A stretch of 64,000 nucleotides of DNA from Sporichthya polymorpha DSM 43042. GTDB taxonomy: Bacteria > Actinomycetota > Actinomycetes > Sporichthyales > Sporichthyaceae. Shown one piece after another: positions 56,776 through 60,396 of this stretch (positions within the stretch are counted from its first letter, which is position 1; the number at the start of each line of letters is the position of its first letter). The stretch covers positions 530,907-594,906 of the forward strand of contig NZ_KB913029.1 in NCBI RefSeq assembly GCF_000384115.1, read 5' to 3'. Under the pieces are notes generated by a model that searched no databases, was not told the DNA's origin, and saw nothing but the letters and a program-made list of their open reading frames with translations. Position numbers and translations under genes: made by a program.

Positions 56776-56809
56776 GGAGGGCCGTCACCCGGGTGGGTGG
56801 CGGCCCTCC
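56776..56809 (+). terminator. Terminator hairpin after cspA
   Basis: Arms GGAGGGCCG and CGGCCCTCC enclose a loop that itself pairs CACCC with GGGTG. It lies 57 bp after the cspA stop, without a T-tract. Confidence 0.65.
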
Positions 56810-56975: not shown

Positions 56976-57152
56976 ATGCCGAAGGCTGAGGCCCGCTCCC
57001 CGCAGGAGAAGGTCGCGGCCAAGATCCGCGCGGGCAAGCTGAAGAAGAAGTGCTGCAAGTCCAAGCCCCGATGCAAGAAGTGCCCCGTCCGCGCCCTGAA
57101 GAAGGCCCGCCGCAAGGCCGAGAAACGCGCCGCGAAGGCCGCCGCCACGTAG
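56976..57152 (+). CDS. Tiny Lys/Arg-rich protein with a CC-x6-C-x2-C motif
   Basis: The 58-residue protein is extremely basic and has one cysteine cluster, KKKCCKSKPRCKKCPVRAL. Small actinobacterial proteins with similar CCxSxPRCxxCPV motifs are widespread and have no known function; the four cysteines could bind zinc or an Fe-S cluster, and the charge suggests nucleic-acid contact. No clear ribosome site precedes the ATG, so the start is moderately sure. It is convergent with the cobalamin-binding-protein gene, sharing the hairpin array at 57151-57220. Confidence 0.7.
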   Translation: MPKAEARSPQEKVAAKIRAGKLKKKCCKSKPRCKKCPVRALKKARRKAEKRAAKAAAT

Positions 57153-57220
57153 GGGTGTCACCCTTTCTGGCGCCAGAAAAGGGTGACACCCCTTACTGCG
57201 CAGTAAGGGGTGTCACCCTT
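57151..57220. repeat. Overlapping long palindromes with TGWCA centres; bidirectional terminator that also encodes a gene tail
   Basis: Three alternating units of AGGGGTGTCACCCTTTC or its complement build two overlapping palindromes. At 57151-57193 the arms meet at GGCGCC with one extra base. At 57179-57220 the palindrome is a perfect 42 bp meeting at CTGCGCAG. The element separates convergent genes. The minus-strand gene stops at 57193, so its last codons (VTPLTAQ) come from the repeat. Confidence 0.85.
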
Positions 57221-58281
57221 TCTTTTCCACAGGCGAGCAAGGTCCGCGTCCGCGACCAGTCGGCCTCGGCGACGTCGGTCGCGGTGCCGGTCGCGGTGCC
57301 GGTCACGGTGACGAGGACGGCGTCGAGGGCGTCGAGGCCGAGGCGGACGGCGGCGGCGGGGACGCCGCGGGCGGTGAGGATCTCGGCGAGCCAGCCGACG
57401 AAGTCGGTGAACAGCTCGACGTCGTCGAGGAACAGCGCGGTGGTGAGGAAGTCGAGGATGTAGCCGATGTCCTCGACGGTCCGGGCGCGCTGCTCGGAGT
57501 CGTAGGCGGCCATCGGGGGGAAGACGCGGGCGAGTTCGGCCATCGTCGCGTCGACGAGGTCGCCGTGGGCGGCGCGGAGCCGGACGTGGGCGTCGTCGGG
57601 GTGCTCGAGCGGCGGAGCTTGGTCGGTGAACGACGGCCAGGCGTCGGACTCGATGAGCTCGAGCGCGGCGGTCGGGTCGGGGGCCCATCCGTTGGCGCCG
57701 AGGGCGAGCGCCCACCGGCCGTCGGGGCCGAAGCCACGGCCGCCGGCGAGGACGGGTACGCCGGCGCCGCGCGCGGCCTCGATCATCCGCCGGGCGCGCT
57801 GCAGCGAGGTCGAGACCGAGCAGGAGAGCGCGACGAGGTCCGGGCCGAGGTCGTGCAGGTACGAGACCAGGTGCGGCGTCGGAACCGAGGCGCCGAGGTA
57901 GGAGACGTCCCAGCCGGACAGGCGCAGCGACTCCGAGAGGATCCGCGCGGGCAGCGCGTGCCACTCCCCCTCCACGCAGGTGACGACGATCCGCCCGCGG
58001 GCCGGCCCGGCGGCGGTGCGCGCGCCGAGGGCGGCGACGACGTCCTCGCTGATGCTCGTGGCGACGTGCTCGCGGGCGACGCCCCAGCTGTTGGTGGCCC
58101 ACTGCCGGCCGACCTCGAGCTGGGCGGGTCGGACGAGCTCGTCGAAGATGCGGATCGCCGGGACGCCCCGCTCGAGCTCGCCGAGGGCGGCGGCGACGGC
58201 GGCGGTCCGGTCGCCCCGGCTCAGGGCGTCCCAGTACCGGTCGCGGACGTCGGCGGACAGCGCGGCCTCGGTCACGGTCAC
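57193..58281 (-). CDS. Cobalamin-binding (B12) sensor protein with photoreceptor-type motifs
   Basis: The 362-residue protein has an N-terminal four-helix bundle (about 10-90) with Trp61-x9-Glu71-His72, the Wx9EH motif that caps adenosylcobalamin in CarH/LitR photoreceptors. A Rossmann-like B12 domain (about 96-210) has the probable lower ligand His108 in EGEWHAL, LSCSVST and LAGGRGFG. A further helical domain (about 235-325, DIGYILDFLTTALFLDDVELFTDFVGWLAEIL) has no HTH; it may be globin-like, as in photocobilins. Its GTG overlaps the phosphatase stop (GTGA), tying it to the partner-switching operon. The last residues derive from a repeat. Confidence 0.85.
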   Translation of the reverse strand: MTVTEAALSADVRDRYWDALSRGDRTAAVAAALGELERGVPAIRIFDELVRPAQLEVGRQWATNSWGVAREHVATSISEDVVAALGARTAAGPARGRIVVTCVEGEWHALPARILSESLRLSGWDVSYLGASVPTPHLVSYLHDLGPDLVALSCSVSTSLQRARRMIEAARGAGVPVLAGGRGFGPDGRWALALGANGWAPDPTAALELIESDAWPSFTDQAPPLEHPDDAHVRLRAAHGDLVDATMAELARVFPPMAAYDSEQRARTVEDIGYILDFLTTALFLDDVELFTDFVGWLAEILTARGVPAAAVRLGLDALDAVLVTVTGTATGTATDVAEADWSRTRTLLACGKERVTPLTAQ

Positions 58282-59477
58282 GCGTCCTCCGCCCGCAACG
58301 CGAGCAACGCGATGTCGTCGTGGGACCGGCCGTCGAGGTACTCCAGGACGAGCTGCTCGATCCGCTCGGTGATCGCCTGCGCCGTCATGTCGACGCAGTC
58401 GCCGACCATCGCGGCCAGCCGGGTCGACCCGAGGAGCTGGTCCCCGACGCGCGCCTCGGTGACGCCGTCGGTGTAGAGCAGCAACGTCTCTCCCGGCTCG
58501 AGCTCGACCGTGGTGCCGCGGAAGCGCGCCTCGCGCAGCATGCCGACGATCATGCCGGTCGTCTCGACGGTCTGCACCGTCCCGTCCCGACGGAGGAGCA
58601 ACGGCGGCGGGTGCCCGCCGGTCGCGAGGTGCACGGTGACGCCGCCGTCGCGGCGGGCGAACCGGCCGTGGACGACCGAGAGGAACTTCGAGCCGTCGAC
58701 GGCGAGCATCGCGTCGTTGAGGACGGTCAGGGTCCGGACGGGGTCGGTCTCGACGAGCGCCGCGGTGCGCAGCGACTGCCGGGCCTGCCCGGTGAGGACG
58801 GCGGCGTTGACACCCTTGCCGCAGACGTCGCCGATGTCGAACGCCCACGCCCCGCCGCAGGGGTAGACCTGGTAGAAGTCGCCGCCGATCGCGGTCGCCT
58901 GCTGAGCGGGCCGGTACCGCGCCCCGAGCTCGACGCCCTCGACGTCGGGCAGGTCGGGCGGTAGCAGCGCGGCGCGCAGGGTGCTCGCGAGCGCGGCCCG
59001 CTCCTCGTAGATCCGGGCCGACGCGACGGCGAGCGCGGCCCGCTGGGCGAGGGCGTCGGTCATGGCGTCGAGAACAGCCGCCTCGTCGCCGAGGGCGTCG
59101 GTGCGCCGGGCGAGCACGAGCGCGCCGGTCACCGACCCGTACGCGTGCAGGGGGACGGTGATCAGCTCGGCCGGGGCGTCGGCCAGTTCCTTGGCCAGGG
59201 CGGGGTCGGCGCCGAGTTCTTCGAGGAGACCGGGGTCGTCCAGCGGCCGCGAGCCGGGGTGCTGGGCGGCGGCGGGGATCGTGGTCGTCGTGTGCTCGCG
59301 CGGCGCCCCCGTCCCGACGCAGACCACGCGGTGCACGGAACCGTCGGGCGCGAGGACGGCACCCCACGCGGCGAGGCGCGGGACGGCGAGGGTGACGACG
59401 CGGCCGAGCGTCCGGCGCAGGTTCAGCGTCCCCGCCAGCGCCAGTCCGGCGTCGGCGGCGAAGCGGTCGACGCTCAG
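58278..59477 (-). CDS. GAF-PP2C (SpoIIE/RsbU-type) serine phosphatase, probable CTG start
   Basis: The C-terminal PP2C domain (about 170-395) has metal-binding motifs IGGDFYQVY and DIGDVCGKG, then GGHPPPLL, LYTDGVTEAR and SHDDIALLAL. It would dephosphorylate the STAS antagonist. The N-terminal GAF-like domain begins LALAGTLNLRRTLGRVVTLAVP, upstream of the first GTG (59336). The open frame has no ATG, GTG or TTG upstream of that point until it enters the RsbW gene; a CTG at 59477 overlaps the RsbW stop as CTGA, exactly like the other junctions in this operon. That gives 399 residues; starting at 59336 would cut the GAF domain. Confidence 0.85.
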   Translation of the reverse strand: MSVDRFAADAGLALAGTLNLRRTLGRVVTLAVPRLAAWGAVLAPDGSVHRVVCVGTGAPREHTTTTIPAAAQHPGSRPLDDPGLLEELGADPALAKELADAPAELITVPLHAYGSVTGALVLARRTDALGDEAAVLDAMTDALAQRAALAVASARIYEERAALASTLRAALLPPDLPDVEGVELGARYRPAQQATAIGGDFYQVYPCGGAWAFDIGDVCGKGVNAAVLTGQARQSLRTAALVETDPVRTLTVLNDAMLAVDGSKFLSVVHGRFARRDGGVTVHLATGGHPPPLLLRRDGTVQTVETTGMIVGMLREARFRGTTVELEPGETLLLYTDGVTEARVGDQLLGSTRLAAMVGDCVDMTAQAITERIEQLVLEYLDGRSHDDIALLALRAEDA

Positions 59478-59956
59478 CCGACGCCCGCCTTCGAGGAGCC
59501 CTCGGCCTGGCCGGCGGCGGGAGCCGGGCGGTGCAGGGAGAACAGGTCGGCGTCGGCGGTCGCGCTGTCGGGCAGCATCAGGCTGAACCAGACGGCCTTG
59601 CCGCCGGCGCGGGCCTCGATGCCCCAGTCGTCGGAGACGGCGGCGACGATCTTCAGGCCGCGGCCGGACTCGGCGAAATCCTCGTCCAGCGGGACGAACG
59701 GGCGATGCAGCATGGGCTCGCCGTCGGCGATCGAGATCGTGACCCGGTCGGCGGCCGAGATGGAGAGGGTGACGTCGGTCCGCGCGTGCCGGACCGCGTT
59801 GGCGATCAGCTCACTGACGCCCAGCTCGGCGTCCTCGACGAGGCGCGCGAGGTCCCACTCCAGCAGGGTGTCGCGCACGAAGTGCCGCCCGTGCGTCACC
59901 GACAGCAGGTCGGCGCTCAGCAGGAGCCGTCGTTCTCGGAAGGGGGTACTGCTCAT
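59474..59956 (-). CDS. RsbW-type anti-sigma factor/serine kinase (HATPase_c)
   Basis: The 160-residue GHKL ATPase has N-box ELGVSELIANAVRHA with the Mg-ATP asparagine, IADGEP and G-box ESGRGLKIVAAVSDDWG. Such proteins bind a sigma-B/F factor and phosphorylate the STAS antagonist. The C-terminal 30 residues (HRPAPAAGQAEGSSKAG) are a disordered tail. The ATG overlaps the STAS stop (ATGA) and its stop overlaps the phosphatase start (CTGA). No sigma gene lies in the operon, so the partner sigma factor must be elsewhere. Confidence 0.9.
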   Translation of the reverse strand: MSSTPFRERRLLLSADLLSVTHGRHFVRDTLLEWDLARLVEDAELGVSELIANAVRHARTDVTLSISAADRVTISIADGEPMLHRPFVPLDEDFAESGRGLKIVAAVSDDWGIEARAGGKAVWFSLMLPDSATADADLFSLHRPAPAAGQAEGSSKAGVG

Positions 59957-60345
59957 CTCGTCCGTCCGTCCTCGACTGCGAGGGCTTCGCCACCGTGCCG
60001 CTCGTGGCCGCGCATCGCCGCTTCGACCGAGCCGAACTGGGGGAACAGCTCGGTCAACCCGCAGATCTCGATCACCCGCCGAATGACGTGGTGGGTGTAG
60101 ACCAGGCGGACCCACCCGTCCCGGGCCGCCGCTTCGCGGTGACCGGCCACCAGCGCCCGCACCACGGAGGAGTCGATGAACGAGACGTTGAGCATGTCGA
60201 TGACCAGGTGACCGTCGCCGGCCTGCAGGTGCGCGAGCAGCGACTCCTCCAGCTGCTCGTCGGCCGCGTCCCACTCCCCGGTCAGGGCGAGGACCGGCGG
60301 TCCCGCCTCCACCGGGCGCGTGACCAGGACCTGACCCATCTCCAC
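59953..60345 (-). CDS. STAS-domain anti-sigma factor antagonist
   Basis: The 130-residue SpoIIAA/RsbV-like protein has ALTGEWDAADE and the phosphoacceptor region MLNVSFIDSSVVRALV, with Ser59 or Ser60 after Asp58. The glycine normally following the serines is valine here. The last 20 or so residues extend beyond the fold. Unphosphorylated, it would sequester the RsbW-like kinase and free a sigma factor. First gene of the four-gene operon; AGAGGTGGAG precedes its ATG, and a SigF-like promoter lies 26 bp upstream. Confidence 0.9.
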   Translation of the reverse strand: MEMGQVLVTRPVEAGPPVLALTGEWDAADEQLEESLLAHLQAGDGHLVIDMLNVSFIDSSVVRALVAGHREAAARDGWVRLVYTHHVIRRVIEICGLTELFPQFGSVEAAMRGHERHGGEALAVEDGRTR

Positions 60346-60370
60346 CTCTCGTTGCCGTACCGGTCGGTCC

Positions 60371-60396
60371 TACCCCTCGCGGCGGATTGCCGAACC
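60371..60396 (-). promoter_or_regulatory. SigF/SigB-like promoter of the partner-switching operon
   Basis: On the minus strand GGTTC (60392-60396) and GGGTA (60371-60375) are separated by 16 bp, close to the mycobacterial SigF consensus GGTTT-N15-17-GGGTA. The expected transcription start is about 15-20 bases before the STAS start codon. Confidence 0.6.

Follow-up and report, generated by a model that had tools for sequence, protein, structure and literature searches.

A four-gene operon carried by a 64,000-nucleotide stretch of the genome of Sporichthya polymorpha DSM 43042 (hereafter the window, to whose positions all coordinates refer) probably constitutes a complete light-responsive partner-switching module, in which a B12 photoreceptor acts on the adjacent GAF-PP2C phosphatase. 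Read on the minus strand from 60345 to 57193, the four genes encode, in this order, a STAS protein, an RsbW-like HATPase, the phosphatase and a B12-binding protein. Sequence comparison and structural modelling identify the latter as a full-length photocobilin, with a four-helix bundle, a Rossmann domain and a C-terminal bilin-binding globin domain (approximately residues 230-330). Photocobilins are B12 photoreceptors possessing a C-terminal globin-like biliverdin (BV) domain (PMC10979010). Sensor, phosphatase, antagonist and kinase are here brought together on one transcript, and comparison of 150 loci points to the adjacent GAF-PP2C as the first partner of the sensor. If this reading is true, the operon would give bacterial partner switching a light input based on B12, and it would provide a trans-acting optogenetic phosphatase of natural origin.

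The operon and its photoreceptor

A first-pass annotation of the region had described the four genes as linked by successive 4-base overlaps. Re-reading of the coordinates and of the junctions, which are exactly ATGA, CTGA and GTGA, confirmed the operon. Its features are the following.

60370-60396, minus strand: SigB/SigF-like promoter motif GGTTC-N16-GGGTAG, approximately 25 nucleotides before the GTG codon of the STAS gene (suggestive)
59953-60345, minus strand: STAS anti-sigma-factor-antagonist (PF01740, E 2.5e-14)
59474-59956, minus strand: RsbW-type HATPase (HATPase_c_2)
58278-59477, minus strand: GAF-PP2C (SpoIIE-type) phosphatase, CTG start (PF07228, E 9.4e-44)
57193-58281, minus strand: predicted photocobilin, 362 amino acids
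58027-58245, minus strand: B12 four-helix bundle with Trp61-x9-Glu71-His72 (PF02607, E 1.1e-10)
57661-57996, minus strand: B12 Rossmann domain carrying the E-x-H motif, whose His108 is the lower axial ligand, and the equivalent of SasPcob His137 (PF02310, E 7.9e-22)
57295-57612, minus strand: predicted C-terminal bilin-binding globin (phycobilisome-like) domain with the equivalents of SasPcob Asp270 and Trp296

The phosphatase start is an unusual CTG at 59477. We adopted it because the frame contains no ATG, GTG or TTG before 59336, homologues align from approximately residue 7 counted from the CTG, and the CTGA junction is also present in the sister species.

The best relatives of the B12 protein in the PDB, aligned over residues 14-324, are SasPcob of Saccharothrix syringae (8J2W/8J2X, phmmer E 2.8e-90) and the photocobilin-diguanylate cyclase AbDPcob (8J2Y, E 2.9e-51). 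Its structural model matches 8j2x with a template modelling (TM) score of 0.85 (Foldseek E 2.8e-26). The matches to PF02607 and PF02310 both exceed their cut-offs; the bilin domain is indicated by the alignment to 8J2W, by a five-helix region in the model and by a weak phycobilisome match (PF00502, residues 244-326, E 0.0044) that falls below its cut-off. The W-x-EH and E/DxH motifs of light-type B12 domains are present, W62, E72, H73 and E107-W-H109 of the predicted protein (P0001) corresponding to Trp61, Glu71, His72 and His108 of SasPcob. The first-pass annotation had singled out the same residues under the latter numbers, since its count, made from the GTG at 58281, coincides with the SasPcob numbering; across 147 aligned relatives they are invariant or nearly so. 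The BV-contacting residues are likewise found (D272, W298 and H138 of P0001 for SasPcob Asp270, Trp296 and His137), and the equivalents of Asp270 and His137 are kept in all 79 aligned named relatives. Residues 225-330 are free of Cys, so that the bilin domain has no Cys for covalent attachment. By analogy with SasPcob, the window photocobilin is predicted to bind adenosylcobalamin (AdoCbl) and BV, to undergo Co-C cleavage in the light and to change its quaternary structure.

The phosphatase carries the acidic motifs GGDFY, DIGDVCGKG, YTDGVTEAR and SHDDIA, and its metal-binding GD, GD, DG and DD motifs are invariant in 33 relatives, as expected for a PP2C of the SpoIIE/RsbU type. Its GAF domain is too diverged for direct detection by profile in the window; PF01590 is nevertheless matched by 27 of the 33 close relatives, and in the AlphaFold model (mean predicted local distance difference test score, pLDDT, 93) a GAF-like order of elements is followed by a 42-residue helix and the PP2C fold. 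Fold matches include the RsbU domain of Rv1364c, SpoIIE and RssB. The STAS protein exceeds the TIGR00377 cut-off (54.3 versus 53.45 bits), contains the phosphorylation-site motif FIDSS, with a phosphorylatable Ser after Asp, and has RsfB and SpoIIAA among its PDB relatives. The HATPase shows the HATPase_c_2 fold (PF13581, 43.7 bits versus a cut-off of 27.4), an N-box ELIANAV and a G2-like GRGLKIV; it scores far below the RsbW equivalog models (15.8 bits versus 145 and 10.9 versus 155), and a sequence search of the PDB returned nothing useful. As judged from these profiles, the RsbW-type assignment proposed earlier holds at the level of the superfamily only.

Pairing of the photocobilin with a PP2C phosphatase

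Gene context was compared in 150 actinobacterial loci. These comprised 69 matches, each with approximately 6 kb on either side, from a sample of 394 genomes belonging to the class of S. polymorpha (66 with a photocobilin relative at E<=1e-20), the window itself, which brings the class-sample loci to 70, and the 80 closest named loci. Immediately upstream of the photocobilin gene, and on the same strand, there is a PP2C gene in 57/70 class-sample loci and 80/80 named ones, 137 of the 150 in total. The S. polymorpha genome codes for 10 SpoIIE-type phosphatases, and yet one is found directly upstream in 137/150 loci; the linkage is therefore far beyond chance. The association of the sensor with partner-switching genes, which the first-pass annotation had seen in the window, is thereby conserved across many genera, and the possibility that homologues never lie beside such genes is clearly excluded.

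In a tree of catalytic domains, a single branch (support 97/95, recovered in 97% of bootstrap trees) divides all 79 photocobilin-linked PP2Cs included from a contrast set of 19 other PP2Cs, nine of them paralogues from the S. polymorpha genome. Because the PP2C gene is upstream in nearly all loci and the linked PP2Cs form one clade, the sensor-phosphatase pair represents the conserved core, inherited as a fixed pair, while the STAS and HATPase genes vary in place and presence and are often missing near the pair or located on the other strand. A STAS gene directly follows the photocobilin gene in 82/150 loci and lies within 3.2 kb of it in 97/150. The commonest order elsewhere is PP2C-photocobilin-STAS (30/70 class-sample and 52/80 named loci); the order of the window, STAS-HATPase-PP2C-photocobilin, recurs in L038, L039, L064, L085, L095, L100, L151, L160 and L167.

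No intact PP2C neighbour was detected in loci L083, L086, L088, L090, L092, L096, L098, L099 and L101-L105, of which L083 is cut by a contig edge and L101 is fragmentary. The photocobilins of these loci are mostly distant, with 28-38% identity where aligned, and several have altered bilin residues. Two loci, L053 and L057, carry two tandem photocobilin genes, approximately 1.15 kb apart, between the PP2C and STAS genes.

Proposed mechanism and its alternatives

In the mechanism that we favour, the photocobilin would bind AdoCbl and, if available, a bilin, and would be expected to form a head-to-tail dimer in the dark. Green light, or red light via the bilin, would break the Co-C bond, releasing the adenosyl group and loosening the dimer, as has been shown for SasPcob. 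The light-changed photocobilin would then contact the GAF-PP2C and alter its phosphatase activity, the likeliest point of contact being the GAF domain or else the long helix of the linker. Sensor domains, or a partner protein bound to the phosphatase (as RsbT to RsbU), have been proposed to control GAF/sensor-helix-PP2C proteins through a coiled-coil linker (PMC12143880), and the window PP2C has the GAF and long-helix architecture matching this proposal. The phosphatase would set the phosphorylation of the STAS protein, the HATPase kinase would be sequestered or not, and its client would be freed or held. This client would most likely be a SigB/SigF-type sigma factor, and a SigF-like promoter preceding the genes would make the circuit feed back on itself. 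What we infer here is the contact with the window PP2C, the sign of the response to light and a sigma factor as the client. The first-pass annotation had suggested contact with the phosphatase or the kinase as the output; output by protein contact had already been proposed for SasPcob (PMC10979010).

Some features of the genome are consistent with a sigma-factor client. The motif GGTTC-N16-GGGTAG upstream of the STAS gene resembles the consensus of actinobacterial SigB/SigF promoters. The sister species keeps both boxes and the total length of 27 nucleotides, the spacer having diverged; the pattern GGTT-N17-GGGTA occurs five times in the 5.5 Mb genome, versus four times for the reversed control. 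As a putative SigB/SigF-like promoter the motif is suggestive only. Three sigma factors of the genome score above the SigBFG cut-off. One of their genes has a HATPase_c_2 domain directly upstream, and the other two are without an adjacent HATPase_c_2 gene.

Several observations weigh against the proposed scheme. The operon itself contains no sigma factor gene. An RsbW-type gene is present within 3.5 kb of the photocobilin gene in 32/150 loci, a count from which the profile may miss diverged genes; most photocobilins have no HATPase gene nearby, and the kinase must therefore often act from elsewhere. The promoter motif was recognised in 2/134 orthologous upstream regions, those of the window and of the sister species, and in no other lineages, and we rejected the idea that photocobilin operons carry it in general. 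Fusions of the photocobilin with a PP2C, STAS or HATPase protein were not seen in the 150 loci, and direct contact thus receives no Rosetta-stone support. Finally, a search of the complete genome for a heme oxygenase (PF01126) returned none, even at E<=10, save for a fragment at E 0.8, which makes the second chromophore uncertain.

The supply of the first chromophore is likely to be secured, since CobO and AdoCbl-dependent mutases are present in the S. polymorpha genome. Concerning the second, heme oxygenase was not found in the sister genome G012 either, and it is without a match in 32/66 class-sample photocobilin genomes and 9/37 named ones, figures to be read with the caution that some class members give weak PF01126 matches and that diverged or unrelated heme oxygenases may be missed. 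Heme oxygenase was rejected as an obligate companion of photocobilins, as it is found in 34/66 photocobilin genomes versus 126/328 others, a weak association (Fisher p 0.055).

These data lend some weight to a serious, if doubtful, alternative, in which the same module operates in S. polymorpha with a B12-only photocobilin, no BV being available from heme oxygenase, and the sign of the light response may be opposite. With AdoCbl-only SasPcob, diguanylate cyclase was activated in the dark and inhibited in the light, the sign being inverted without BV (PMC10979010). Because omission of BV had this effect, the missing heme oxygenase bears on the sign of the response. Against a B12-only sensor, the equivalents of Asp270, Trp296 and His137 are intact in the window protein, and bilin-pocket residues are also intact in main-clade photocobilins from genomes without heme oxygenase. 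The intact pocket speaks for a bilin-type ligand still being bound, perhaps scavenged or produced by an unrecognised enzyme. The missing heme oxygenase thus raises a concrete question, that of the bilin-pocket occupant.

An equally tentative alternative concerns the other end of the pathway, where the partner-switching arm could be devoid of sigma control and the HATPase could act on another STAS-type or non-sigma client. The failure of the HATPase to match the RsbW model, the 32 HATPase_c_2 matches in the genome, the lack of a sigma gene in the operon and the scarcity of HATPase genes near photocobilin-PP2C pairs all favour it. The SigF-like promoter motif, the two SigBFG genes without an adjacent HATPase and the presence of the SigF regulators Rv1364c and RsfB among the PP2C and STAS relatives argue in the opposite direction, towards the sigma-factor client that we prefer.

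It is unlikely that, instead of light itself, the sensor reports the state of cobalamin or the redox state (AdoCbl versus hydroxocobalamin, or the loading of the cofactor). AdoCbl occupancy alone alters the enzyme activity of AbDPcob in the dark, and the genome codes for many B12 enzymes. However, the W-x9-EH and ExH light signature is invariant or almost so in the aligned relatives, the corrinoid enzymes of the genome belong to other families, and SasPcob is photoactive. Less probable still is a contact of the photocobilin with the STAS protein or the HATPase instead of the phosphatase: the frequent position of the STAS gene directly after the photocobilin gene would fit such a contact, but the PP2C neighbour is far more constant, belongs to a dedicated clade and often stands without a nearby STAS or HATPase gene on its own strand.

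The proposal of the first-pass annotation that the sensor is a CarH/LitR-type photoreceptor lacking its DNA-binding domain can be set aside as highly improbable: the B12 module and the W-x9-EH/His lower-ligand motif are common to both, and a domain scan (Pfam) indeed found no DNA-binding domain in the B12 protein, which is without the MerR-type N-terminus of CarH/LitR, but the NCBIfam CarH model gives 45.8 bits against a cut-off of 400, and the full-length match to photocobilins includes the C-terminal globin domain that CarH/LitR proteins do not have. The assignment as a B12 photoreceptor-type sensor therefore stands, and the family call, which had missed the second, bilin domain, does not. 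No CarH or other B12-type regulator was seen among the other six PF02310 proteins of the genome, which are enzymes. A corrinoid methyltransferase partner was also rejected as the principal reading, given weak MtbC/MtgC model scores and no methyltransferase neighbour.

Relation to known systems and flanking elements

For SasPcob and AbPcob, the chromophores, the photochemistry and action on an enzyme in trans have been shown, and SasPcob has been predicted to be linked, as an input to the stress response, to STAS, SpoIIE and PP2C-like proteins; the discoverers of photocobilins called the function of standalone members unclear (PMC10979010). Action by protein contact and the predicted STAS/SpoIIE/PP2C link are therefore already published. 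New here are the near-universal pairing with a PP2C, the monophyly of the partner, the variants of gene order, the promoter motif and the heme-oxygenase puzzle.

The window protein resembles SasPcob in being a standalone B12 and globin protein, in all checked AdoCbl/BV contacts and in full-length similarity. Its locus differs by the order STAS-HATPase-PP2C-photocobilin with 4-base overlaps, by the SigF-like promoter motif and by a host without recognisable heme oxygenase. The related S. coeruleofusca locus L107 has the order PP2C-photocobilin-STAS-HATPase. AbDPcob, for which light-activated enzyme control has been demonstrated, has the same photosensory unit, but its output enzyme is fused and its key BV residue is His, whereas that of the window protein is Asp. 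The RsbU/RsbP/RsbZ switches of Bacillus subtilis and Clostridioides difficile (PMC12143880) and Rv1364c of Mycobacterium tuberculosis share with the window the sensor-linker helix-PP2C arrangement, the STAS protein and the HATPase. In contrast to these systems, the light/B12 sensor encoded in the window is a protein of its own, placed in trans; formally, this recalls the action of RsbT on RsbU.

More generally, a two-cofactor photoreceptor might act in trans on one GAF-PP2C clade across many actinomycete families, converting light into a SigB/SigF-type stress input, and might read the bilin as a second, sign-setting signal. The latter is conceivable because about half of the class-sample hosts are without heme oxygenase and yet keep the bilin pocket. 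We advance this generalization as speculative, and on balance somewhat unlikely in its full extent.

Downstream of the operon and convergent with it, a small Lys/Cys-rich open reading frame is located at 56977-57152 on the plus strand (MPKAEARSPQEKVAAKIRAGKLKKKCCKSKPRCKKCPV...); the longer frame read at 56793 has no Pfam match. The 3' end of the operon is occupied by a further element:

57178-57221, no strand assigned: 44-bp palindromic dispersed repeat of terminator-like appearance, in which the photocobilin gene has its final codons and its stop

The stretch 57154-57190 was noted together with this palindrome, AAAGGGTGACACCCCTTACTGCGCAGTAAGGGGTGTCACCCTTT. The genome contains 171 copies of the palindrome's half-site versus 0 of the reversed control, and the half-sites are mostly paired, 31 bp apart. 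An identical palindrome in the sister species occupies the same place and likewise provides the stop codon of the photocobilin gene; it looks like a genus-level repetitive extragenic palindromic (REP)- or terminator-like repeat.

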